A stretch of DNA of 64,000 nucleotides, taken from IMG/VR virus record IMGVR_UViG_3300038465_000091, positions 1 through 64,000 of that record. The stretch is one strand, 5' to 3'. The stretch is from a virus. A model generated the notes under the pieces. It worked only from the letters and a program-made list of their open reading frames with translations. It had not been told where the DNA came from and did no database searches. This document shows positions 3,767 through 62,234 of this stretch, piece by piece (within the stretch, counting starts at the first letter, position 1; each line of letters opens with the position of its first letter). The position numbers and the translations under genes are program-made.

Positions 3767-6394
3767 TTATCCCATACCCTCGCCGCTACCTTCTGGACCT
3801 TCGTCATCCATTTCGGCCTCAATCGCGTTCAGGTCGAGACCCTTCGTGATGCGCTTGCCGAGATCGGTGTTGGTCATGAGCCAGTCACCCACGGAGTTGT
3901 AGATGTTGCTCAAAAGCTCGTTAAACTTCGAGTCCTTGACGGTGAACATCGCGTCTTCTAGTTCTCGCTTCGCATCCTCTGGATCGATATCTAAGAACTC
4001 GTAGATAATATCCACTGGCAACGATCCCTTACTATATAAATTGAAAAGCATATCGTAAATATCGCCTTGATCGCGAAGCGCCATGCGACTAAAGGAGATT
4101 TTGGGATATATCCAGCGGGGACGGCCATACTTGTCCATCTCGTAATATCCGCGTTTTTGGCTGTAAGGTTTGAAAATCTGCTCCTCGATAACGTATGTCA
4201 AGAGATCACGGAACTGGGCATAGGACGTTTCCATCAATTGCAGTTGCACGTGGTTGCCTGAGTACATGCCCTCACCAATGAGGATTTCAGGCGACAGGCC
4301 AAGACCGATTGCCAAGTCGGAGTTCGTGTGCTGCCACTCAGCGTCGAGCGAGAGCAGACGACCTTCGGAACCAATCTCATCCCATCTACATTCGTAATTG
4401 ACCACGACGGAATAATCGGGATCGGCGATAGCTTCGTCGATGTGGGCGCGTAAGGCAATAACTTCATTCGCTGGAATGTCAGGGGCTACAATCAAACGCT
4501 TTGGCGTCATGTTACGGGATGCCAACGTGCTCTGCACCTGACGCAGCTTCTCGCGGTAGATAACCGTGCGGATGCAGCGTTGCAGGATCGAGCGGCCATG
4601 CAGTTCGTAGCCGCTCTTCTTGCGGGCGAAGTGGATGACGTAAGAGCCTTGGAACGGGTCGTTGTTCAGCGGAATCTTGCCTTCCGTCTGAATCACGTCC
4701 TTCACTTGGTTCGGGACATCAGGATCATCCATGTAGGCTTGCTTCTGAGCCTCGGGTGGTTTGTAGTAGATCGTCGGACCATCCACCATCGTGCCCTCGT
4801 TGGTGATCTCGATCTGCTCAGGCGGAAGAATCTGAATGCGATCAGGTCCCTCGTAATCCTTATTCTCGATGTGGCTGAAGAGTTCCAGTTCTTCGCGCTT
4901 CTTCTCACGAATTTCCTTCAATTCTTCGAGCAGTTCTTTCTTCTTTTCGAGCAACTTGAGGAGGTGCTTCATTTCCATCAACTCACGCTGTGCCGAAATC
5001 GTGGCACCCATGGCGATAGCGTCCTTCACGCCCCCAGCGGCATCAGCGGGAGTAATCGGACCACCTCCACCGCCGCCTCCACCACCCATTGGGGCACCGC
5101 CGCCCATACCTTCAACGTCGCCAAGACCGCCCTCACCTAACGGGGCACCTTCGCCGCCTGCCGCTGGGTCACCAGCAGCGGGGTCGCCCGCAGGGGCGTC
5201 TGCGCCCGGAGGCGTACCGCCCCCAGCATCACCCGTAGGTGGTGCCGCAGCGGGTGCGGCCGGAGCGGGTGGTTGAGCAACTTTGGACATTTCGGCTAAG
5301 ATTTGAAGCGGGTAAGTATCGTCACCTTTTTCGTTACGGATAAGCTTCGCCAGCTTGTCGTTAGTCTCCGAAGCCAAAATCATCTTGGCGAGTTTCTTCG
5401 GGGCAATGCCTATGACCTTGGCAAACTTACGAGCACCCTTGTTGAGTTCTTTACGGGTCGCCTCGATCTTAACCGCGACTTTGGCAAGGTCTTTGATAAT
5501 GCTGTCGGCCCCGAAATCGAAATCAATGCCCGCAGCCTTGAGTTCATCAAACACTGAAGCGCGTTTCTTGATCCACGAAGAACGCTTCTCAGGTTGGAGG
5601 TATTCCAAAATCTTATCCGCCGTACCGCCTTCGGGTGGGTGGAAAGCTCCATCTCTGCTACCCGCTTCGGTGCTGTCGCCGCCACGTTTGCCTTCCTTTT
5701 CAAGAATTTCCTTGGCTGCCGAGCATGGTTCAATGTCTTCGGGGTCTTCGATGAATAGGAAGGTCTCTCCAATGCACCAGTACTCTCTGGCCGCATCGAT
5801 GATGACTTGAAACAGGCGGGTGCGGTTCATAAACCGCTGGAAATCGTCGTACACATAATCGGCGTACTCTTCGGACGAGCACTTCGGTTTCTCTGCCGTC
5901 ATCTTACTGACGGGGAGTTCCGTGTGCATATCGATTGCGCGACCGACGATTGGGTCACGATCATACGCCAGACGATAGAAACGAAGTTCTTCTGCACGGG
6001 ACGCAGGAAGCTCAAGGGCATCAACTGGAAACTCGTAAGAGTAGTAGCCGATGTTATTCGAGTCTTGGATATCGGCAGCGCCCAAACCGCCGTCACTGAA
6101 AAGACCAGCAGCCGTTTTAGCCGCCTCGTACATGCCCCAGCCAGAGTTTGGGTTGGTGCTTACGGTGCCGCTACGTGCCGCGCCTTGGATAATACGGAGC
6201 TTGTTCATCGCCGAATCTTCGACGATCTCGCCCTTATTGTTCATCTGCGTGTACTTGCCAGCCGATGCGAATTCCTTGTTGCCTACTTTGGCAACCTTCC
6301 GCTTTACCATGGACGGTGAGATGCGCGTATTTGCGCCTCGCTGACGGGTAGTAACCCGCTTACCTTGACCGTCGTCTGCTGTCTTATTTGCCAT
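3767..6394 (-). CDS. Portal protein
   Basis: 875 residues. The segment RAEELRFYRLAYDRDPIVG, the following Asp/Glu-rich region and the C-terminal half with GRSILQRCIRTVIYREKLR, ASRNMTPKRLIVAPD and GNHVQLQLMETSYAQFRDLL are typical of large myovirus-type portals, the dodecameric ring through which DNA enters the capsid. An unusual Pro/Ala/Gly-rich low-complexity insert lies around residues 370-450, followed by a Glu/Lys coiled coil. The gene is preceded by a TGTATTTAGAG promoter-like motif and a GAGAGG site. Confidence 0.8.
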   Translation of the reverse strand: MANKTADDGQGKRVTTRQRGANTRISPSMVKRKVAKVGNKEFASAGKYTQMNNKGEIVEDSAMNKLRIIQGAARSGTVSTNPNSGWGMYEAAKTAAGLFSDGGLGAADIQDSNNIGYYSYEFPVDALELPASRAEELRFYRLAYDRDPIVGRAIDMHTELPVSKMTAEKPKCSSEEYADYVYDDFQRFMNRTRLFQVIIDAAREYWCIGETFLFIEDPEDIEPCSAAKEILEKEGKRGGDSTEAGSRDGAFHPPEGGTADKILEYLQPEKRSSWIKKRASVFDELKAAGIDFDFGADSIIKDLAKVAVKIEATRKELNKGARKFAKVIGIAPKKLAKMILASETNDKLAKLIRNEKGDDTYPLQILAEMSKVAQPPAPAAPAAAPPTGDAGGGTPPGADAPAGDPAAGDPAAGGEGAPLGEGGLGDVEGMGGGAPMGGGGGGGGGPITPADAAGGVKDAIAMGATISAQRELMEMKHLLKLLEKKKELLEELKEIREKKREELELFSHIENKDYEGPDRIQILPPEQIEITNEGTMVDGPTIYYKPPEAQKQAYMDDPDVPNQVKDVIQTEGKIPLNNDPFQGSYVIHFARKKSGYELHGRSILQRCIRTVIYREKLRQVQSTLASRNMTPKRLIVAPDIPANEVIALRAHIDEAIADPDYSVVVNYECRWDEIGSEGRLLSLDAEWQHTNSDLAIGLGLSPEILIGEGMYSGNHVQLQLMETSYAQFRDLLTYVIEEQIFKPYSQKRGYYEMDKYGRPRWIYPKISFSRMALRDQGDIYDMLFNLYSKGSLPVDIIYEFLDIDPEDAKRELEDAMFTVKDSKFNELLSNIYNSVGDWLMTNTDLGKRITKGLDLNAIEAEMDDEGPEGSGEGMG

Positions 6395-6423: not shown

Positions 6424-7212
6424 CTAGTTTTCTTGTTCTTCCGCGTCCTTTTGGAACTTCTTGGTCCGCTGGGCAAGCTGGATTTTGACTTGCTCCATAA
6501 GCTCTTCGGGATCAAGGTCTACCAAATCAACGGTTTCAAAACCCTCCGAATCCGCCCCGGGGGTAGTTAATTTCGTCGCTTTCTTGATCGCTGCACTGAT
6601 TACATCTTTGGCTGACCGAACTGTGCGAGCTTTCCGTTTTTCTCGCAACAGAGCCTCTTCCATTTGAGCCGCCAGATTTACTTTCTTGGAACTCAGTTCG
6701 GCCAACCCCATCAACCCTTGCTTCAGCAGTTCGGCGGTAGGAGCGAATGATTCACGCTCAGGCTCATCCAAGAACCCCCATAAATTAGAGAGGCATATTA
6801 GAACCTTCTTCTGAGTTTGGTAGGCACGCATCGCTAAGCCCATCTGGTTGTATACCTTGCGGGCGTCAAGTCGCATCAAAGAACGCTTTCGAACAATCTC
6901 CGTGTCGTCGTCGCCGTCGTTTATCTCCCAGTGTTTGAACATCGGTGAGTCGTGTTTCTTAGTGCCGACAGGTTTGGCTTTTTTGCCAACTATTTCTTCT
7001 TTCTCACGTTCAAGGGCGGCCTCACGTTCGCCGACGAGTGTGGGCTCTTCGCGACCCTCTTGTTCCGCTTCTAGTTTCTCAGCCTCGGTGAGTGCTGGAG
7101 TCCATGGGCGTCCACAAGTGCGGCAGGTGTTGAAATAATCAATCGGCCCGAAGCACTTAGGGCAAGAGTGGAACTTGTCTTCTTTTGTGAGTGCTACTTT
7201 TTTCTTCGCCAT
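6424..7212 (-). CDS. Zinc-ribbon protein of unknown function next to portal
   Basis: 262 residues. The N-terminal CPKC...CRTCG is a zinc ribbon; the rest is charged and helical, with a long acidic stretch around residues 40-80. Its position directly before the portal gene suggests a packaging or virion role, but I do not recognise the family. Its start codon overlaps the stop of the preceding endonuclease gene (TAATG). Confidence 0.6.
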   Translation of the reverse strand: MAKKKVALTKEDKFHSCPKCFGPIDYFNTCRTCGRPWTPALTEAEKLEAEQEGREEPTLVGEREAALEREKEEIVGKKAKPVGTKKHDSPMFKHWEINDGDDDTEIVRKRSLMRLDARKVYNQMGLAMRAYQTQKKVLICLSNLWGFLDEPERESFAPTAELLKQGLMGLAELSSKKVNLAAQMEEALLREKRKARTVRSAKDVISAAIKKATKLTTPGADSEGFETVDLVDLDPEELMEQVKIQLAQRTKKFQKDAEEQEN

Positions 7213-7634
7213 TAGTCGTTAAATTCCTTTAAGTACACAATCGCTTTTTGGAGGAGCACCAAGCTGTCTTCGAATTGACCCAACCCACGATTGCATTTGT
7301 GGCATAGCAACCCACGAACTTTGCCTGTCTCATGGTCGTGGTCTATCGGTGCATCCTGCAAAATTGGGATGGAGCAAATCGCACATTTTCTTTCTTGTCG
7401 TTCCCACAACTCGACCAACTGCTCTTTCGTAAAATCGTAACGGCGTAACCGCATGTACTCGTTGTAGGCGAGCCTCGCATCATCCGCACTTCGAATTTCC
7501 GCGTTCAACTTAGCGTGCTTACGTCTATAGTCGGGATGGTTTCTCCAGTAAGCTTTCTTTCCGCAAGAACGGCTACAAAACTTTTGATTCCGCCCCGTCT
7601 TCTTGAACGGTTTTTCACAAAATCCGCAATCCAT
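7212..7634 (-). CDS. Recombination endonuclease VII-like protein
   Basis: 140 residues. N-terminal CxxC...C...C zinc finger (CGFCEKPF, FCSRSCG), then the endonuclease VII core CAICSIPI...IDHDHETGKVRGLLCHKCN. T4 gp49 relatives cleave branched DNA; short phage versions often act as mobile endonucleases. The second in-frame ATG is chosen because GTGAGG precedes it. Inserted between two structural-region genes. Confidence 0.85.
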   Translation of the reverse strand: MDCGFCEKPFKKTGRNQKFCSRSCGKKAYWRNHPDYRRKHAKLNAEIRSADDARLAYNEYMRLRRYDFTKEQLVELWERQERKCAICSIPILQDAPIDHDHETGKVRGLLCHKCNRGLGQFEDSLVLLQKAIVYLKEFND

Positions 7635-7684: not shown

Positions 7685-8098
7685 TTACTTTCCGAACTCC
7701 CGTATCACTCGGCCCTCAGCATCGAAATACTTGATGTAATAATTCGGATGACAGTTGAGGATTAGTCCTTTGTGAGGACCTTCAAGAAAAAGCACGTCCA
7801 AGTTGGCCGATGAGTTTTTTCCCGCGATTTCCCCCTTGAGTCCGCCGATTTCAACAAGCATTCCAATTCTCGCGAATGGGACACACCTATAGGTTGCGGT
7901 ACGTAGGAATTCGTCGAAGACATTCTTGTTCGGATGATCGGAACCTCTGCAAACCGTTATCTGCGTATACTTTACGTCAGGCCAAGACTCAGTGACATCG
8001 CGCCAAAATTTGTACTTCGCTTTTCCAGCGGTGATGTGGTAGATGGTTGTTGGGGGGAATGTACTCCCCTTGACATTGCAATCGAAAGCTTTTAGCAT
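7685..8098 (-). CDS. Conserved phage protein, unknown function
   Basis: 137 residues, no recognised motif. The C-terminal part is beta-rich (GMLVEIGGLKGEIAG, VLFLEGPHKGLILNC). CTGGAGATAAG places the start at ATG 8098. It lies between polymerase and structural genes. Confidence 0.6.
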   Translation of the reverse strand: MLKAFDCNVKGSTFPPTTIYHITAGKAKYKFWRDVTESWPDVKYTQITVCRGSDHPNKNVFDEFLRTATYRCVPFARIGMLVEIGGLKGEIAGKNSSANLDVLFLEGPHKGLILNCHPNYYIKYFDAEGRVIREFGK

Positions 8099-8135
8099 CT
8101 TATCTCCAGTCCGACGCCCACGAAATCGCCTTATA

Positions 8136-8222
8136 TCAGTCCTTGAACGTGACGTGGGTATCACCACGCGGTGAAACAGCCGTCCATTTCCCGTTGATTT
8201 TTCTGACCCACCATTTACGCAA
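8136..8222 (-). CDS. Small basic ORF after DNA polymerase
   Basis: 28 residues from a TTG start overlapping the polymerase stop, with AGGTGA just upstream. The composition (WWVRKINGKWTAVSPRG) looks coding, but the length makes it tentative. Confidence 0.35.
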   Translation of the reverse strand: MRKWWVRKINGKWTAVSPRGDTHVTFKD

Positions 8223-11200
8223 GGGTCACCTGCTTCAGGAATTCCTCCGGCACGTGGTCGAGCTTCTTTCCCGTCACAGTCACGACCTTACCGCCGATCT
8301 TGATATTGACGGTGTTCGGCCCCCTGCCTAGAGCTTCCTTGAGTTGCCGCTGAAGTTCCGCGTTGGTCTGCACCTCATCGATCAATTCGTAGATGGGCTC
8401 GGTCCCGTGTAACTCTGCCAAAATCTTCGGTAGGTTAGCGACAGCCTCAGCGTGCTTTTCAGCTTCAGCTTTGTCCTTGGCGGCACGCTCGGATTCCATC
8501 TCCCGCATGGTCTCCGCATTCATTCTATGAGCAACCTCGGCGATGGCAGCCTGATCTATCGTTGCGGGGATCGTAGCAGTGATCTCATTCTCCGATACAG
8601 TGATGAGCGGAAGCTCGGCTTGGACTTCTTCACCGAGGATGAGCAGCGTCGGACGGATAACCTTCGCATCCAACGGAATCGCCCCTGAGTATCCGAACGA
8701 CGGCATCATGCCGCGATCTTTCGCAGTAAGGCCGACACGTTGCTCGTACTGTTCCAACGTTTCCATCGTGGCATCCTGTCCATCAGGCACGTGGTCAATC
8801 GTCCAGTATTCATGCAACTGAAGAATGGCGATCAGAATGCGCTGGGTTTCCTTGGGGTTCTTCGCCTTATCGAGAGCGTTGATCGTTTCGTACACGTCCG
8901 TATCGTGCACGCGACCGACAGCCCGTGGATGCAGGTTCTCTATCATCCAAGCCTTGACTTTTCCAACTTTGATCGGATCGCCCGATGTCAGGGAGTTGAG
9001 CATAGCCTTGACAGACTTGGAGTCAAACAGGTCGGGCAGGTATCTCTCCATGCCTTCGACGTGCGTCCAAGCGTAGGCTTTCTTCGGGTCCGTAGCGTTC
9101 CAGTCAACATCCCAGCTATGCCCGTATTCCGCATCGCACTCAATCGGCACGGGCCACTTCATCTGCTCGTGGTACTTGCGGAGCTTCATGAGGCGGGTGA
9201 CACGCGGCAGAATGAACGGGACGTACTCGTTCTTCACCGAGAAATCAACTTCGTCGTGCACCGACGTATGCAGACGGAACACCGACTGTATCAACGGGTC
9301 GCTTTCCACCCACTTACGGAGGCGGTTCAATGCAATACGCATGAAGTCTCCGCAGATGCCTTGAATGGGAGCGTTGACGGCGATACGTTGGACCTTGCCG
9401 ATGAACTTGTTGTACTCCATCGCGTTGCGGACGCCCGAATCAGGGTCTTTCCACAGGCGGTCGGCGCGACCTTTATACTTCTGGTAATCCGCGTCGTTCC
9501 CCGCCTTCTTTGCCTGCTCCGCTTCGCGGTTGTTTCCATAGTATTCGTAAAGGTTATGACGTTCTTCGTCAAACGGCTTGTGCAGGTGCAGGGCTTCCAA
9601 TGCCGAGTTGAAGTTGATGACGCGACCCGTCGAGGTTTCGCAAATCATCTCGGTCTTCGCCTTCGTCTGTTTCATCTGCACGAACTCGGCAAACTTAGGC
9701 ACGCCTTCCCAATATTTATCCACCATCTTCTTGCAATCTTCCTTGGTGATATTGGGGTCTTTTTCCTTCATGTTGAGGTAGATGGCGTGCTCAGTGCCGC
9801 CATACAGGAGGGCGAAGTTGATGATCTTAGCGATATCGCGGAAGCCCTTCTTCTTGTCGGCTGAAGTGTTCGGGTCGTTGAATTCGGGGAAGACGTTGGA
9901 CGCAGTTAGGGTGTGGAAATCGCCCTTGCCCTTAAGGAATTCGTCAATGAACTTTGGCTCACCGCTCATGTTGGCGGCGGCTCGCATCTCGATGTTCGAA
10001 TAGTCAACGGAGAACCACGTCCAGCCCGGGGGCGAACACATCAGCACACGCAGGTTGACGACTTCGTTGGCATCCATCTGCGTATCTTTGATGAGGATGC
10101 CGTATTTCTCCGCGCAAGACGTACACTTCGGGACAAGACAGATTGCGTATCCCGTGTACTGCCCGATGTGGTTCTTGATGATGCCTTTGGCTTTCTTGAT
10201 GACACCTTTCTCAAGATGGAAACAGGACGGGTCCAAGTCGGCTTCGGTGTACTCCTCCATCTCATCGAATGGAATTTCATCGGGCGACAGTACGTTGCCG
10301 TGCACACGCCACTGCTTTTCGGGCTCGACCTTCTTGACGCCCTGCGGGTTCATACCGAAGCCGCCGTCTTCCTCGAAGTCCCCGCCTGATGCCGATAGAC
10401 GACCGCCAGCTACCGTGCTCTGTCGCAAGTGAATACGGGCGGACAAGTCCTTCGGGTCATACCGCAGGTTGGCTGGGTGGAGTGCTCCGTACTTCTTGAA
10501 CTCCATAAGGGTCTTAAGGAATTCATCATCTGGATGGTCTTTCACCAAGTCGTCGATGGCATCGCTATCGCAGGACGGGGCTCCAGCCTTCTTTGTCCAG
10601 TGCTCGATCTCGTACCCCTTGACCCCGTATAGAAGCTTCTGCAACTGCGGGCCGCTGCCGGGGTTGAACTTGTCATCCTCGTTGACCTTGCCCTCTTCAT
10701 CAGCGGGCTCCTTAAACCCAGCCTCAAGAGCTAGATTGCGGAGCTTGTTGTACAGACTGTCGAGCAGCCCTTGGTGCCACTTGGCGGTTCGCCCGTGACG
10801 CTCGGTGTCGATCAGGAACCGTTGACGCTCAACGAAGATGATGCTGTCCACCAACTCGTGGTCGATGCGGTGCGGCAGGCGACGGCTACGTGCCAAATCC
10901 TTCATCTTCTGCCACAGGAGCCACGTGCAGATGGCATCACCTGCGGCATACCAAAGAGCAATGTCCGTGGGAACCCATGTGAACGGGGCGTACACGTTCT
11001 TCTTGCCGTGCTTTTTATCCTGTTGGGACAGGGCCTTTATCTCTTCTTCCGTGCAATTGCAGAGAGGCTTCTTGGTCAGCGGGCACACCACGGCTTTGAC
11101 TACGGAGATTTCTTCTATCTCGATCTGCTCGATACCCAGCACGGTCTTGGACAACGCCTTCAAACCACCAGCGGAGCCCGTGTACTTCTGCTTTTTATCA

Positions 11201-11826
11201 CCCAGATCGGCCTTGGGGTCATTGATGTACGCGAGGGACTGCACGTCTTCGAAGTGCGGATAACCGCGTAGATTGATGCCCAGACACAGACGTATGACTT
11301 CGCGGTCAAATTTCGCGTTGTAGAAAATCAGATGGCAGCGGTCGAAGAGGTATTGGAGGATGCGACGTGCGGCTTCACGGGGGACGTTCTTGCCCCTCTC
11401 GTGATTGATCGGAACATAGATGCCCTCAACACCGTCCGCGCTCAAGCAGACACCAGCGATCTCAACCTTGACTTCGTAGGTCAACTCATACGAGCCGTCT
11501 GGTTGCTCCTGCATGTCGATCAGGATTCGAGTATCGAGACCATTGCCTTCGGTGTCTACCGCGAGAGCGGGGGACGTTTCTTTGCCGTATGTGTGGTGAC
11601 GAGACTTGTCCGCGAGCAGATTGTCTACCCACGCTTGAAGGGCTTCTTCCGTATCCAGCAGTTTGAAGGCTTTCTCAGCCATCCACGGCTTCTTGATCTT
11701 CTCAATGTCTAGCTCGCGAAGACGAGCCCGATACATGGAACGGAGATCGGACGGCGGCTTTGGTTTCTTGACCTTCTTGGTCCGCTTGAGCTTGACCTCG
11801 CCCGTGTCCTGTTGAATCTTTGCCAT
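8215..11826 (-). CDS. DNA polymerase family A with 3'-5' exonuclease
   Basis: 1203 residues. The DEDD exonuclease motif is VDTEGNGLD at residues 90-98, with FYNAKFDREV and AGDAICTWLLW further on. Polymerase motif A is WFSVDYSNIEMR, motif B RDIAKIINFALLYGG and motif C HTSVHDEVDF, all intact. A C-terminal extension of about 250 residues after motif C, with an Ala/Glu-rich helix, is unlike bacterial Pol I. There is no 5'-3' exonuclease domain. This is the likely replicative polymerase, with the primase upstream on the same strand. Two small genes overlap its start. Confidence 0.97.
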   Translation of the reverse strand: MAKIQQDTGEVKLKRTKKVKKPKPPSDLRSMYRARLRELDIEKIKKPWMAEKAFKLLDTEEALQAWVDNLLADKSRHHTYGKETSPALAVDTEGNGLDTRILIDMQEQPDGSYELTYEVKVEIAGVCLSADGVEGIYVPINHERGKNVPREAARRILQYLFDRCHLIFYNAKFDREVIRLCLGINLRGYPHFEDVQSLAYINDPKADLGDKKQKYTGSAGGLKALSKTVLGIEQIEIEEISVVKAVVCPLTKKPLCNCTEEEIKALSQQDKKHGKKNVYAPFTWVPTDIALWYAAGDAICTWLLWQKMKDLARSRRLPHRIDHELVDSIIFVERQRFLIDTERHGRTAKWHQGLLDSLYNKLRNLALEAGFKEPADEEGKVNEDDKFNPGSGPQLQKLLYGVKGYEIEHWTKKAGAPSCDSDAIDDLVKDHPDDEFLKTLMEFKKYGALHPANLRYDPKDLSARIHLRQSTVAGGRLSASGGDFEEDGGFGMNPQGVKKVEPEKQWRVHGNVLSPDEIPFDEMEEYTEADLDPSCFHLEKGVIKKAKGIIKNHIGQYTGYAICLVPKCTSCAEKYGILIKDTQMDANEVVNLRVLMCSPPGWTWFSVDYSNIEMRAAANMSGEPKFIDEFLKGKGDFHTLTASNVFPEFNDPNTSADKKKGFRDIAKIINFALLYGGTEHAIYLNMKEKDPNITKEDCKKMVDKYWEGVPKFAEFVQMKQTKAKTEMICETSTGRVINFNSALEALHLHKPFDEERHNLYEYYGNNREAEQAKKAGNDADYQKYKGRADRLWKDPDSGVRNAMEYNKFIGKVQRIAVNAPIQGICGDFMRIALNRLRKWVESDPLIQSVFRLHTSVHDEVDFSVKNEYVPFILPRVTRLMKLRKYHEQMKWPVPIECDAEYGHSWDVDWNATDPKKAYAWTHVEGMERYLPDLFDSKSVKAMLNSLTSGDPIKVGKVKAWMIENLHPRAVGRVHDTDVYETINALDKAKNPKETQRILIAILQLHEYWTIDHVPDGQDATMETLEQYEQRVGLTAKDRGMMPSFGYSGAIPLDAKVIRPTLLILGEEVQAELPLITVSENEITATIPATIDQAAIAEVAHRMNAETMREMESERAAKDKAEAEKHAEAVANLPKILAELHGTEPIYELIDEVQTNAELQRQLKEALGRGPNTVNIKIGGKVVTVTGKKLDHVPEEFLKQVTLA

Positions 11827-14605: not shown

Positions 14606-14854
14606 TTAAAATCTTTTCTTTGCTAATTGAACCTTGCGGTTCCGAATCTGCCGCACGCCCTCGGCGCACTGGCAAGCTTTCTGCAAGGCTAAACACGTTC
14701 CACAAAAGGATTCGGAAATCAAAATACTGCTGTTGATTCCCTCTTTGAAGTACGGATTGCAGCTATACTCCATGTTGCACGGTTCCAACTTAGTGCCTTT
14801 CTGATCCGCGTGGTTTTTCACGTTGTTCAGAAAAATACAAGTATCACAACCCAT
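14606..14854 (-). CDS. Cys-rich small protein
   Basis: 82 residues with eight Cys (CDTC, PCNMEYSC, CGTC, CQC), probably metal binding. Unknown family. The ATG follows AAGAGAGAAAAG. It is transcribed toward the structured RNA at 14395. Confidence 0.55.
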   Translation of the reverse strand: MGCDTCIFLNNVKNHADQKGTKLEPCNMEYSCNPYFKEGINSSILISESFCGTCLALQKACQCAEGVRQIRNRKVQLAKKRF

Positions 14855-14910
14855 CTTTTCTCTCTTTCAAAGCGTCGGCGGGGCTTTCGCCCCGCCGTTG
14901 GTCGGGGCCA

Positions 14911-14981
14911 CTTGGTTTACGTCCAAGAACGGGGGCGAGACGGCGAACCGTTTACCCTCCACCACTCGGTTTACGTCCGAG
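14911..14981 (-). repeat. Two covarying hairpins with identical loops
   Basis: CTTGG-TTTACGT-CCAAG at 14911-14927 and CTCGG-TTTACGT-CCGAG at 14965-14981. The single stem difference is compensated on the other side; loop and 3' flank (AGAACG) are identical. This is evidence for selected RNA structure in the gap 14855-14990, which also holds a GGCGGGG/CCCCGCC hairpin at 14877-14897. Confidence 0.6.
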
Positions 14982-14990
14982 AACGTGAAC

Positions 14991-15290
14991 TTATCCGCAG
15001 ATTTCAGGCCCGCAGCTTTCGGCGTTACCCGTGCTCTCGTTGGGCTCGTACACTTTAGCTGCGTAAACGTACTCACCTTCGGCGAAAGGTCCTGCCGAAG
15101 CATTGACCAGCATGTACCCCAGTTTAGCCAATGTGTCGGCGTTTGTCAAGAGGCGCATTTTATTGGTCGTCTGACCGTAATGCGAAGCTTCAACTTCCAA
15201 CACTGGGCGACCCTTTGTATCTGTCGTAACGGCGAATTGCACTCCACCGCCCCCGATCTCCAAAAACACTTCATTCAAAGTCTCGCCCAT
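14991..15290 (-). CDS. Hypothetical protein downstream of large structured RNA
   Basis: 99 residues, beta-rich (VQFAVTTDTKGRPVLEVEASH). AAAGGATCGT precedes ATG 15290. Its upstream region is the roughly 960-nt structured RNA, so it may be on the same transcript. Family not recognised. Confidence 0.6.
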   Translation of the reverse strand: MGETLNEVFLEIGGGGVQFAVTTDTKGRPVLEVEASHYGQTTNKMRLLTNADTLAKLGYMLVNASAGPFAEGEYVYAAKVYEPNESTGNAESCGPEICG

Positions 15291-15295
15291 ACGAT

Positions 15296-16258
15296 CCTTT
15301 CAAAATGCTATTGGGACCTAGCTGCGACTGGCTACGCAGGGTCGTCGGCTCCCGCCGAAGGTCTTGCCTATCAAGCGTCCCAACAGCAATCTTCGCCCCC
15401 ACTGTTCTCGCGGTATTACCGTCCGATTGGATACGGAAGCGTTGCCCCAATTCTTGGGTTACCCGTTCAGGGGGAGCACCCACCCATCAATCTCAAAACT
15501 ATGCGGGCACGAGCTTGGTTAGGCTCCGACCTTCTGCCGTAGTTGCAACGGCCTCCCGATCTTGCTTAGTCGCCGCACAAACTTTCCCAGTCGGCAGGGA
15601 CTCCCGATTCTCCACCCTGCATGACCCCAGTCCCATTTAAGGGACACAGTTGAGCCTGTGCTCGAAGACTGTGCTGACCGCTTGGGTCTCCACGTTCGGA
15701 ATCCCGTCGCAGCGGGAACCCCTTCCAAACGCTTTAGCGTCTCTATTTCTGGATCGTGTCTATTTCCGCCACGACTGGAAAAACGATTGTGGCGGGGGAT
15801 AGCAGCCGTAAAACACGGCCCCACTAGGCTCACGCCCACGTTCTTTTGGTAAATCTCCCTTGAAGAACGATTGCTCATATCTCGTATCGTAGCTCGAACA
15901 GGAGCAGGACACAGAGACACCGCCACAAAATTACTACTCCCATCCGAGGCAGTTCGAACTGCTTGTCGGCGTCGGCTGTAACCAGCGAACGAGCGATTTG
16001 AGCTTACCTTTCGGCAGAGGCTTGCGGAGTTCGTTAAAAGCGGCCTGAGAAGCGATTTCACAGGTTTCACGCCGCACGCTTTTACGTTATGGCGGTTCCC
16101 CGAACAATGACTCCACTCAGGCACAAAGTCAAAGTCCAATGAGGACCTGCTAATCACAGCCGCTATTACGCGGCAACCTTACTTGTTGTCAGGCGGCTGT
16201 CGGCTTTGGCCCTGAGGATTTACACAGGAGCGACTCACCTATCATGACCTGACAACAA
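15296..16258 (-). ncRNA. Large (about 960 nt) structured non-coding RNA, GOLLD/ROOL-like candidate
   Basis: No gene fits on either strand, yet the minus strand is dense with helices: an 11-bp stem 16183-16193/16248-16258 at its 5' end, then hairpins at 15766-15795 (CCGCCAC/GTGGCGG), 15729-15740 (ACGC-TAAA-GCGT), 15703-15716, 15645-15660 and 15631-15644. Purine-rich unpaired segments are on the minus strand. It starts 2 nt after the CCA of tRNA-Met. Size and tRNA linkage match the giant ornate RNAs GOLLD and ROOL of phages; I cannot assign the family by eye. Confidence 0.6.
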
Positions 16259-16260
16259 AA

Positions 16261-16339
16261 TGGTTGCAGAGGCTTGGAGTCGCACCAAGTACACCGTTCG
16301 GCTTATGAGGCCGATGAGCCGCAGTTGCTCGATCCCTGC
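16261..16339 (-). tRNA. tRNA-Met (CAU), overlaps HNH gene
   Basis: Anticodon loop CTCATAA on TCGGC/GCCGA; T-arm CTTGG-TGCGACT-CCAAG (TGC instead of TTC); encoded CCA. The 5' half is also the last 12 codons of the HNH gene, whose stop TAA lies in the anticodon loop. Could be elongator Met or, if lysidine-modified, Ile. Confidence 0.7.
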
Positions 16340-16686
16340 TTCAAACTTAACAATCCCGCGTGAACCTTGCGATGACAATTCTCACACAGAACCACGCACT
16401 TTGCAATCTCAGCTAAGACTCGTTCTCGACTGAATTGCCTTGCGATTGCGTATGCTATCGTAAATTCTTTCTTGTCCTTGTCCACGTGATGAAATGAAAG
16501 GCAGCAATAAGCCGTTTCAGGACACAACTTGCAGGACAATTTCAAAGACTGGAAGAGCTTTCGTATCTCCTCCTTGTACCGTTTCTTTCGCTGGCTAACC
16601 AGCCGCTTGTGCTCCGCTCTGTACACGGGATCGTTGTTGTAACGATCTCGAAGGTACTTTGCGTGTTTTGCAGGGGTAGTAGGCAC
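16303..16686 (-). CDS. HNH endonuclease ending inside tRNA-Met
   Basis: 127 residues from GTG 16686. The HNH core is CKLCPETAYCCLSFHHVDKDKKEF...CVVLCENCHRKVH. The last codons run through the 5' half of the tRNA-Met gene and stop in its anticodon loop. TATACT preceded by TGG lies 6 nt upstream of the GTG, predicting a leaderless mRNA. A partial tRNA 5' half is displaced just upstream (16703-16719). Confidence 0.85.
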   Translation of the reverse strand: MPTTPAKHAKYLRDRYNNDPVYRAEHKRLVSQRKKRYKEEIRKLFQSLKLSCKLCPETAYCCLSFHHVDKDKKEFTIAYAIARQFSRERVLAEIAKCVVLCENCHRKVHAGLLSLKQGSSNCGSSAS

Positions 16687-16692
16687 CCTACA

Positions 16693-16701
16693 AGTATACC
16701 A
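16693..16701 (-). promoter_or_regulatory. Extended -10 box TGGTATACT
   Basis: 6 nt before the GTG start of the HNH gene, at the junction with a displaced tRNA fragment. Confidence 0.5.
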
Positions 16702-16702
16702 C

Positions 16703-16719
16703 AGCCGCAACTCGATCCC
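16703..16719 (-). pseudogene. Displaced 5' fragment of tRNA-Met
   Basis: GGGATCGAG and TGCGGCT, separated by one base, match the 5' half of the intact tRNA-Met at 16261-16339 (same two blocks separated by four bases). It sits immediately upstream of the HNH gene, as if the gene had inserted into the tRNA and supplied a new 5' half. Confidence 0.55.
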
Positions 16720-19769: not shown

Positions 19770-20026
19770 AAAATTCCGATGGCGTATGAAGTGAGCATTG
19801 ATCCTTGGCTGAGCACCATCAACACCGTTTGCAAAATCTTGGGGCGACCTAAGCTGGCACTGGTACTTGCGTGGTCTCCAGCCATCGACGTATTATGCAC
19901 AGCCTGCGACCGAGTACCCGGCGACCTCGCAGACCGCTCCACCCCGTTCTTCGATACCTGCCTGATCCCACGTTGCAGACTTTCGTCTGTGCGAGTCAGC
20001 CCTCGGGCGGGGCACTTTCAAAACTT
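19770..20026. other. Gap without gene
   Basis: 257 bases between a small gene and tRNA-Pro. Short minus-strand helices (CAGACGAAAGTCTG near 19985) but no ORF I trust. Confidence 0.3.
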
Positions 20027-20116
20027 TGGTCAGGATGAGAGGATTTGAACCTCCAAGGTCATAAAGACACCTGCATCCGAGGCAGGACGGCTGCCAAGTT
20101 ACCGTTCTACACCCTG
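20027..20116 (-). tRNA. tRNA-Pro (CGG), long variable region
   Basis: C1-G72 acceptor, D-arm ACGG/CCGT, anticodon loop CTCGGAT on CCTGC/GCAGG, encoded CCA. The 14-nt variable region can form GTC-TTTAT-GAC, as in class II tRNAs, unusual for Pro. Confidence 0.7.
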
Positions 20117-20129
20117 ACATTGTAAAATT

Positions 20130-20216
20130 TGGTCGGGGTGGGGAGATTCGAACTCCCAGTGATCTTATCTCCCGCTTCCAAAGCGGGTCGGCTCCCAACT
20201 ACCGATTTACACCCCG
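20130..20216 (-). tRNA. tRNA-Pro (UGG), long variable region
   Basis: Acceptor CGGGGTG/CACCCCG, D-arm TCGG/CCGA, loop TTTGGAA on CCCGC/GCGGG, encoded CCA. Variable region about 13 nt, like its neighbour at 20027. Confidence 0.75.
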
Positions 20217-20342
20217 ATTATGCGTTTTTCCGCCTAAAAGCGTTTTATACGGAAAACCGCCTAAAGCACAAAATCGAGGCAAATGTCTTGGAATTCAGTT
20301 GCTTACAGCGCCCCGATGCCTAGCAGCACGGGGTTGAGGCTC

Positions 20343-20414
20343 TTAGAGCACTTCACCCCCGCGCACGGTAGGCGTGCACGGTCGAAACATCGGGGTTGGT
20401 CGCATTGTGTTCAT
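20343..20414 (-). CDS. Pro-rich leader peptide ORF
   Basis: 23 codons including four Pro codons (CCA, CCG, CCG, CCT) upstream of the Pro tRNA genes. The CCCCGATG inside it (20388-20395) can pair with CATCGGGG at 20311-20318, which can instead pair with CCCCG at 20329-20333: two exclusive structures. Weak ribosome site. Proposed regulatory leader. Confidence 0.45.
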   Translation of the reverse strand: MNTMRPTPMFRPCTPTVRGGEVL

Positions 20415-20534
20415 AAAGTCGTCCCGATTCGTGCCCAGAGCCGTAGCTAAACTACAGATGCTCACGAATCGTAAGATTGGTGTGGGGCACGAGTTTCCAC
20501 CGTTCTGTAATCTGCGCCCTTCCCAATCTCTACT
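20415..20534 (-). promoter_or_regulatory. Structured 5' leader of Pro tRNA operon
   Basis: Between a TGGTATTAT box and the Pro-rich ORF, TCGTGCCC (20485-20492) pairs with GGGCACGA (20429-20436), an 8-bp stem. Confidence 0.45.
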
Positions 20535-20543
20535 ATAATACCA
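20535..20543 (-). promoter_or_regulatory. Extended -10 box TGGTATTAT
   Basis: Upstream of the Pro-rich leader ORF and the Pro tRNA genes; no gene begins at it directly, so it probably drives the tRNA operon. Confidence 0.6.
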
Positions 20544-20606
20544 TGGAAGTTTGAATTTTAGTTAGGAAAATCGAAATTTATTTCCAAGGCACGGGGTCAT
20601 GGGCGT

Positions 20607-20762
20607 TCAGTTGTTCGCGGCGGTCCATAAGCTCCTGCCTTCGCGGTTCGTGTATTTCGGCTGCACGCCATCTACGATCAGCGGCTCCCGCGTGCCCTCC
20701 ACAACGACGTTCTTCCGACCCGTCCAAACTCTAGTCTTGGCGGATTTCTTCACGGCTTTCAC
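20607..20762 (-). CDS. Small basic protein coupled to NADAR gene
   Basis: 51 residues from GTG 20762, overlapping the NADAR stop (GTGA), with GTGGAGG 7 nt upstream. A second overlapping 16-codon ORF (20578-20628, ATG after AGGAG) could be a further micro-gene. Unknown function. Confidence 0.5.
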   Translation of the reverse strand: MKAVKKSAKTRVWTGRKNVVVEGTREPLIVDGVQPKYTNREGRSLWTAANN

Positions 20763-21325
20763 AGTTCATCCTCCACGATTTGCGGCGAGGCGTTGTCAAA
20801 ACCGCCAGCACACGACTCACATTCCTGCCGCTTGGTCTTGCCGTGCTTGCACATCGGTTCAGCAGTTCCCAGTCCGTAAAACTGCCGTACTTCCATCAGC
20901 AGCCTACCGAGCCAATTCTCGCCGAGGGGTGCATGAGGAAAATCACACTTGCCCATGCACACGCCCCAGAACGTGTCGTGCCAGTGATTGCCTTCGATCA
21001 ACTCGGCTTGAAACGTGGAGATCAGCTTGCGCTTGGGAATGCTCGGCCTGAACTTCTGCATGAGCAGATCGCGCATGATACCGATCTTGACTTCTTCCCA
21101 GTCGGGACGTAGCTTCAAGGACCGTCCCATCCTCTTTGCTCTCGCGGACGTTACGCCGAGGTAACGGAACTTCTCACGTTGCGCTGCATCGAGCGTCTTT
21201 GCCGCTTGGTATGCATGTTCAACCGAGGTATACACCTCAACCATGGCGTCGGGCATCTCATGGGCGTAAATCATCCCATCGGTGGTGACCCATAGCCGAA
21301 CTTCGCCGAGTGCGAAGTTAGACAA
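20759..21325 (-). CDS. NADAR (YbiA-like) domain protein
   Basis: 188 residues from TTG 21325. Matches the NADAR family: VEHAYQAAKTLD, ARAKRMGRSLKLRPDWEEVK, IMRDLLMQKF, EGNHWHDTFWGVC, GENWLGRLLMEVR. Family members remove ADP-ribose from guanine bases or act on riboflavin intermediates; phage copies may counter DarT-type defence (inference). A Cys/His tail (CKHGKTKRQECESC) may bind zinc. The conserved F-x-G-x-W-x-FLSNF strand begins upstream of the TTG in frame, without an ATG, so the true start may be non-canonical. Confidence 0.85.
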   Translation of the reverse strand: MSNFALGEVRLWVTTDGMIYAHEMPDAMVEVYTSVEHAYQAAKTLDAAQREKFRYLGVTSARAKRMGRSLKLRPDWEEVKIGIMRDLLMQKFRPSIPKRKLISTFQAELIEGNHWHDTFWGVCMGKCDFPHAPLGENWLGRLLMEVRQFYGLGTAEPMCKHGKTKRQECESCAGGFDNASPQIVEDEL

Positions 21326-29417: not shown

Positions 29418-29585
29418 TTATTCCTCAATGGATTTCTTCGCCACTATCATACCACAGTAGTCAAGCTGCACCTTGTCAAGGCACTCTTTGCCGCAGACCA
29501 ACGCTTTGCTCAGGGGTTCCCGCCACGCCCGCTGGTATGACATCGGCCTAGCACAGCCCGCACAGAAAAGTTCGAAGTCTCGCAT
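29418..29585 (-). CDS. Small zinc-binding protein
   Basis: 55 residues, CAGC and VCGKEC probably bind zinc. Overlaps the release-factor-like gene stop. A TGGTATGAT sequence lies inside its coding region. Confidence 0.6.
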   Translation of the reverse strand: MRDFELFCAGCARPMSYQRAWREPLSKALVCGKECLDKVQLDYCGMIVAKKSIEE

Positions 29586-29959
29586 TAGAATTCCTCGACC
29601 TTCAAGTTACTGGGGTGCATCATCTTGTCCACGGACTCGATTACCGAATCCTCCATCTCATCGTTAAGAACACTGATCTCAAAATCCTCGTTGATCTCCC
29701 TGAGTCTGCGGGCGACCTCGGCCTTGTGCCACTTCAGGAATACGTCGTTCCTCGCCAGTTTTATGAACGCCGCCTCTCGGTTCTTGGCCTGATCCCGTCC
29801 GTCGCGGTGCTCTGCCCGTGCCCCCGAAGCCTTGTGAATGATTCGGACGCCGTTCTGTTTCGCGTTTCTATGCTGTCCGCCCGCTCCACCCGTACAGAAA
29901 GTTTGAACCAGAAAGTCTTTCTTGGTCAGGCTGAACAGCAATTTCATTTCTTTTGCCAT
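29585..29959 (-). CDS. ArfB-like peptide release factor (RF-1 domain, GGQ)
   Basis: 124 residues. GGAGGQHRN (GGQ at 27-29) followed by SGARAEHRDGRDQAKNREAA is the catalytic domain of class I release factors. The codon-recognition domains are absent, as in ArfB/YaeJ and phage RF-like proteins that free peptides from stalled ribosomes. It fits the phage's own tRNAs and RNase P RNA. Coupled to both neighbours. Confidence 0.88.
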   Translation of the reverse strand: MAKEMKLLFSLTKKDFLVQTFCTGGAGGQHRNAKQNGVRIIHKASGARAEHRDGRDQAKNREAAFIKLARNDVFLKWHKAEVARRLREINEDFEISVLNDEMEDSVIESVDKMMHPSNLKVEEF

Positions 29960-61734: not shown

Positions 61735-61745
61735 TTAAAATATTC

Positions 61746-62085
61746 GTGTTGAACCTGTAGCCGGGATTTTGTCCGCCAGCTTACGCCAGTTGGACGACCA
61801 TTCCTCTAGGCGTTGCATCGCTACAACGCTCAAGCACCCTACCCGCTGATTACCCGCCTCTTGCGAAGCGAACGGATCGAACACAATCCTGCTCAGCCTA
61901 TTTGGGCTTGCTGCACGTGGAGATTGCTCGTTTCACCCGAACTGAATCGGCTCGTCTCTGTAGCTCTAATCGTCAACACCCTTGCGGGTGCCGCCCAGCC
62001 GTTAGCTGGCACGCTGTTCTTTGCAGTCCCGAACTTCCTCCCCTGCGCTCAACGCCGGACTTGGTTGGGTATTTCACATCAACAC
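61746..62085 (-). ncRNA. rnpB: RNase P RNA (bacterial type)
   Basis: About 340 nt. P1 is GTGTTGA/TCAACAC at the two ends. Conserved regions appear in order: GGAGGAAGTTCGGGAC (CR-I), ACAGAGACGAGCCG (CR-II/III), GCAAGCCCAAATAGGC (CR-IV), GGGTAGGGTGCTTGAG (CR-V), and ACAAAATCCCGGCTACAGG near the 3' end. It is encoded inside the GNN tRNA operon between Gly and Cys tRNAs. The RNA subunit would mature tRNA 5' ends; no protein subunit gene is in the window. Confidence 0.93.
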
Positions 62086-62234
62086 TGCCGATGCGAATCT
62101 TACACGCTTCCAAGCACAGGACGTATATCTACGCAGCAGCGGTCGTCCAATTCAACACAAATTTTCAAAGACCTAATAGACGATGCAAAAGCTTTGTTCT
62201 GCACTCAATCACCCGATAAACTGGGCGATGATTT

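Follow-up and report, generated by a model that had tools for sequence, protein, structure and literature searches.

Separable structured RNA domains, two of them apparently new families, beside a tRNA-Met gene in a clade of jumbo phages

What does a phage keep in a gap of ~970 nt between a tRNA gene and the next likely protein-coding gene, and is the answer one RNA or several? The question is raised by the window analysed here, the first 64 kb of a 223.5-kb virus record, which encodes a phage DNA polymerase (8215-11826), a portal, a helicase and a UvsX-like recombinase, as well as 27 tRNAs. Directly 3' of the CCA end of tRNA-Met, and up to a likely gene that starts at 15290 on the minus strand, the stretch 15291-16264 is non-coding and, on the minus strand, densely structured, in agreement with a preliminary description of this DNA that had noted a structured minus-strand region of ~960 nt. 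The minus strand of this 974-nt stretch is predicted to fold more stably than 20 of 20 shuffled sequences (z-score -2.6). The plus strand also folds better than its shuffles (z-score -3.4), so the folding energy alone cannot identify the strand. In the covarying helices described below, G-U pairs occupy 14 cells and A-C mismatches only 2; this imbalance indicates that the RNA corresponds to the minus strand, like the neighbouring tRNAs and most likely genes nearby.

A DNA similarity search of named phages and plasmids returned no match to the region, and the copy from locus L013 matched the same sequences only over short tRNA-like stretches. Relatives were found among the IMG/VR viral contigs, scanned with the polymerase protein and then with a polymerase alignment; these scans revealed further jumbo-phage loci at 49-94% polymerase identity, some of them near-duplicates. 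Many relatives possess, like the window, a non-coding stretch between the tRNA-Met and tRNA-Phe genes, and these stretches have short conserved blocks in common with the window. Domain A or an S-like stem is likewise preceded by a tRNA-Met in L004 (by eye), L005 and L007 (domains are listed in the table). Among named phages, the closest by polymerase (45% identity) is Tunturiibacter phage Tunturi_5, a jumbo phage with a 309-kb genome that infects Acidobacteriota (PMC11924767); an acidobacterial host is therefore plausible for the window phage. Tunturi_5 lacks domain A, and its best match to domain B is at noise level (E-value 4.75, a rough figure, like all E-values from our short-calibrated covariance models). 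Later pattern scans of the viral contigs gained no additional phages, and a pattern search for the hairpin of domain B across bacterial and archaeal genomes yielded two matches, both unrelated coding sequence by eye. Several open reading frames in or beside these loci resemble endonuclease genes. In the window, an HNH endonuclease frame recognized by PHROGs (16303-16710, minus strand) overlaps tRNA-Met; L006 shows weak LAGLIDADG and HNH matches at 6883-7257 and 7828-8136, together with a tRNA that looks truncated by eye; and in L008 a frame at 1684-2091 has no family match.

The first of the two best-supported domains, A, was aligned from six phages, some of which are close kin. Its helix H1, GCAGGU/ACCUGU in the window, becomes GCAAGU/ACUUGU in L007 and CAGGC/GCCUG in L026, and in the H3 hairpin four pairs have changes on both sides. 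The loop of H3, GCCUGAG, pairs with the downstream strand CUCAGGC to form the pseudoknot H2, which is preserved as GUCUGAG/CUCAGAC in L007 and as GCCGGAG/CCCCGGC in L026. Altogether 94.7% of the cells pair and 8 of the 19 pairs are altered on both sides, a number that none of 500 shuffles of the six-phage alignment reached; the covariation score is 0.379, compared to 0.152 in the shuffles (0/500 as high) and at most 0.091 when the structure is slid along the alignment. A covariance model (R2) detects the domain once per record in seven records. To judge from these alignments, A is a previously uncatalogued, pseudoknotted RNA family whose pairs are kept by compensatory change. Its identity to the L004 and L006 copies is 94-99%, vs 88-89% for the polymerase gene.

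Domain B, likewise aligned from six phages including close kin, is closed by the pairing of its ends (UUUCCAGU/ACUGGGAA in the window, with the variants CCGGU/ACCGG and CGGGU/ACCCG). Its long-range helix reads GACCC/GGGUC in the window, GACUC/GAGUC in three phages, GAUUC/GAAUC in L008 and GGCUC/GAGCC in L026. In the terminal hairpin the stem varies freely around a near-invariant loop, GUGGAGAAUCGGGA, which is one base shorter in L026 and carries two single-base changes in L008. Changes on both sides affect 11 of 29 pairs, a number reached by 2 of 500 shuffles, and none of the 500 attained the covariation score. Eight records contain a match to the covariance model of B (R1); G000 and G014 among them represent the same phage, and the L004 contig has a partial copy in addition to the complete one. 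On the basis of base pairs kept by matching mutations, B is, like A, a previously uncatalogued RNA family. Thus far, compensatory changes in both domains exceed shuffled and slid controls, and both are best filed as new RNA families of a known kind, the structured phage RNA in a tRNA island.

The remaining parts of the array are represented by fewer sequences. The long stem that follows 2 nt after the tRNA CCA is domain S: it is formed by UUGUUGUCAGG...CCUGACAACAA, and its z-score is -4.3, with none of 200 shuffles equally stable. S has a counterpart in L006 (7309-7384), while L005 (4885-4961) and L007 (6821-6909) possess equally long stems of other sequence in the same place. The segment that separates A from M in the window is reduced to a distance of only 7-8 nt in L004, L005 and L007. 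Domain M (z-score -3.3) has the same layout in L004 (6882-7061) and L005 (5180-5330), an M-like element occurs in L007, and in L005 the closing stem of M carries a compensatory change from U-A to C-G. The hairpins described earlier at 15631-15795 are real and belong to domain B and to the 3' end of M. For segment Y, BLAST recovered only the 3' border. Domain C occurs in three phages, the others being L004 (7390-7458) and L006 (7720-7793); its 15 pairs form in each of them, and both sides have changed at five positions. With three sequences each, M and C are less certain, their support being thinner than that of A and B. Covariation among phage homologues is thus seen in A, B and C, and the suggestion of a new class is supported for A and B, with thinner evidence for the further domains. 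In L005, ~340 nt between M and B (5340-5675) seem by eye to contain three more helix-closed domains; with this insert, the length of the array varies between phages.

Table. Coordinates of the tRNA gene, RNA domains and segments of the window, and of YrlA-like RNAs and TROVE/Ro60 genes in three related records.
Feature	Coordinates	Strand	Basis and remarks
tRNA-Met (CAU)	16265..16339	-	ARAGORN; immediately upstream of the RNA domains
Domain S	16182..16258	-	Long closing stem with irregular interior; 2 nt after the tRNA CCA
Domain A	16036..16177	-	Six-phage alignment; ~140 nt; helices H1 and H3, pseudoknot H2
Segment between A and M	15929..16035	-	Coordinate comparison; ~107 nt
Domain M	15787..15928	-	Multi-branched; 9-bp closing stem UUGUGGCGG/CCGCCACAA
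Domain B	15582..15783	-	Six-phage alignment; ~200 nt; closing helix, long-range helix, hairpin
Segment Y	15384..15581	-	Resembles L006 7540-7719 by eye
Domain C	15311..15383	-	Three-way junction; last hairpin CUGCGUAGCCAGUCGCAG
YrlA-like RNA and TROVE/Ro60, L010 record	G003:79027-79139 and 127158-127928		
YrlA-like RNA and TROVE/Ro60, L025 record	G005:72864-72977 and 19952-20647		
YrlA-like RNA and TROVE/Ro60, L013 record	G008:72728-72841 and 19816-20511		

The comparison of domain content between phages bears directly on the number of RNAs. The window phage arranges its elements as tRNA-Met, S, A, M, B, Y, C. M and B are absent from L006, where S, A, (Y) and C are present, and L007 combines an S-like stem, A and an M-like domain, with B absent. 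L008, L013 and L025, two of which are near-identical records, contain B in the absence of A, with a YrlA-like RNA, a separate bacterial Y RNA, in the place upstream of B. In L004, A and M are followed by a truncated B, part of another gene and then C, and a second, complete B is found ~4 kb away near a tRNA-Leu cluster. Thus, among these virus records, which may be fragments, the domains are not inherited as one unit: two phages have A but not B, three records have B but not A, B is duplicated in L004 and C is displaced, and the domains are therefore separable in evolution. They are closed by helices and joined by linkers of 2-8 nt, and tRNAs and RNase P RNA, which are undoubtedly separate RNAs, share the same arrays. 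We propose, with a probability that we put at about one half, that the region represents several separable structured RNAs grouped in an island, which would be transcribed together with tRNAs and freed by tRNA processing. That these are several RNAs rather than one is a leaning, not a proof, since the short linkers and the A-M-B order, constant wherever all three domains occur, fit a single RNA as well. Some of the presence and absence of domains may result from decay or recombination rather than from independent function. It is possible that the homing-endonuclease-like genes in or beside the locus caused the shuffling of domains, and they may also explain why A is 99% identical to its L006 counterpart when the polymerase genes are 89% identical.

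The main rival, to which we assign a lower though still considerable probability, is a single large ornate RNA of ~950 nt here and of variable length elsewhere, built of exchangeable domains, set free behind tRNA-Met and working as one GOLLD- or ROOL-like assembly, perhaps an RNA-only multimer. GOLLD resembles the region in being a large RNA of several hundred nt with an elaborate fold, phage-borne and encoded near tRNAs; a variable 5' part is found in GOLLD too, and GOLLD env-38 is located downstream of a Met-tRNA, which recalls the size, phage origin and place of the present array (PMC12286853). ROOL is likewise a large structured RNA of phages and prophages, with pseudoknots, and both ROOL and GOLLD occur near tRNA islands (PMC12286853). 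The comparison made in the preliminary description was thus apt as regards phage origin and tRNA context, but membership is not borne out by the models: no Rfam family matches 15291-16264 at the gathering or permissive (E-value ≤5) thresholds. In particular, the GOLLD model (RF02032) finds nothing at E-value ≤5 in the region or at ≤10 in seven records, and the ROOL model (RF03087) matched neither in the Rfam searches nor in a specific search, the latter being weak on its own since its control genomes held no ROOL. The region, known from sequence alone, also differs from GOLLD in that its domains are inherited separately: A and B each occur without the other, B is duplicated elsewhere and C moves. 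The single RNA of ~960 nt envisaged earlier is therefore probably not indivisible, its domains having been gained, lost and moved separately among related phages.

Other explanations appear far less probable. It is unlikely that the array is a cis-regulatory leader of the small downstream genes (14991-15290 and 14606-14854): domain C does end ~20 nt before the start codon of a 99-aa gene, and in L005 B shortly precedes a relative of an 82-aa gene, but the downstream gene varies (in L008 B is followed by another frame with HNH-like features, L026 has no clear downstream gene, and the 99-aa gene is located elsewhere in L005 and L004) and much of the array has no start codon in its vicinity. Less probable still is the idea that B represents a group I intron, degenerate or diverged, whose homing partners are the adjoining endonuclease genes. 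Endonuclease-like genes are indeed close by, the long-range helix of B is P7-like and the hairpin that follows it is P9-like; however, the group I model (RF00028) has no match at E-value ≤10 in seven records, although it did give matches in control genomes, the candidate for the expected P3 helix pairs in only 61% of cells and has one pair changed on both sides, and the ends of B pair with each other, with neither exons nor an interrupted gene found. Finally, the region could be read as a protein-coding gene, as its longest internal frame, of 212 aa with a GTG start, covers 15519-16157. This is the least credible of the alternatives: the G+C content by codon position of this frame is flat (0.53/0.57/0.53), while real genes of the window have ~0.35-0.45 at the second position and ~0.55-0.72 at the third; a PHROGs search matched no family; the homologous stretches of L004, L005 and L006 have stop codons in all frames; and conservation tracks helices and loops. 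The comparison with relatives contradicts a coding role.

The mechanism that we favour for an island of separable RNAs builds on the structure, strand, conservation, modular inheritance and phage and tRNA context of the domains, as read from sequence comparison. According to this scenario, tRNA-Met and the RNA domains would be transcribed jointly from the minus strand, and the transcript would be cleaved at the 3' end of the tRNA and within the short linkers that join the helix-closed domains by tRNA-processing enzymes of both phage and host, the clade having its own RNase P RNA. This would yield S, A, M, B and C as folded RNAs, each of which could function independently, most probably by forming the core of a ribonucleoprotein with putative protein partners during infection; B would act through its near-invariant unpaired strands and A through its pseudoknot. 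It is tempting, if rather doubtful, to go further and regard A and B as novel functional classes of phage RNA, which could be ribozymes or RNA scaffolds and which this clade would maintain in its tRNA arrays together with an RNase P RNA of its own and, in a subset of the phages, a Ro60-Y RNA system, the whole forming a phage-borne RNA-processing kit. As two covariation-backed families without an Rfam match, A and B extend the short list of large structured RNAs that phages encode by tRNA islands, and they illustrate that such regions can be built from exchangeable domains, for which reason function should be sought domain by domain rather than in one giant RNA.

The phages of this clade carry further RNA equipment. 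A class A RNase P RNA is encoded in the window at 61741-62086 (minus strand), above the Rfam cut-off, and such an RNA scores above the cut-off in all seven clade records longer than 155 kb (those of the window, L005, L007, L010, L021, L025 and L026); the search of Tunturi_5 found none. Thus, the phages of the clade appear to have their own ribozyme for 5' processing of tRNAs. The strongest YrlA-like matches, all below the Rfam cut-off, occur in exactly the three records that encode TROVE/Ro60 (see the table), and records without TROVE/Ro60 lack strong matches, except for the 54-kb fragment of L008; this distribution suggests a phage-borne system of Ro and Y RNA. In the window phage record the YrlA model (RF02553) has no match at E-value ≤5 within 15291-16264 and one weak, distant match at 129424-129495 (E-value 0.009). 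The tRNA-like part of YrlA has a layout like that of a permuted intron in a tRNA, and the idea that a permuted group I intron interrupts a tRNA in L008, L010 and L013 was dropped when Rfam matched the element to YrlA. The RNase P RNA, the Y RNA with Ro60 and the dozens of tRNAs suggest that these phages supply their own RNA-maturation equipment. Among minor observations, a wcaG RNA (RF01761) in L021 (7526-7621) scores 42.2 bits against a cut-off of 42, and similar hairpins are present in the window (14886-14990), L004 (7466-7545), L008 (2173-2204) and L010 (8685-8714); those of the window, repeated GUUCUCGGACGUAAACCGAGUGG hairpins before a small gene, are wcaG-like in look, with a sub-threshold score. 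The window also encodes, on the minus strand, a NADAR-domain protein (20759-21325) and a small protein with an RF-1 domain (29585-29959), which may act as a factor in ribosome rescue.
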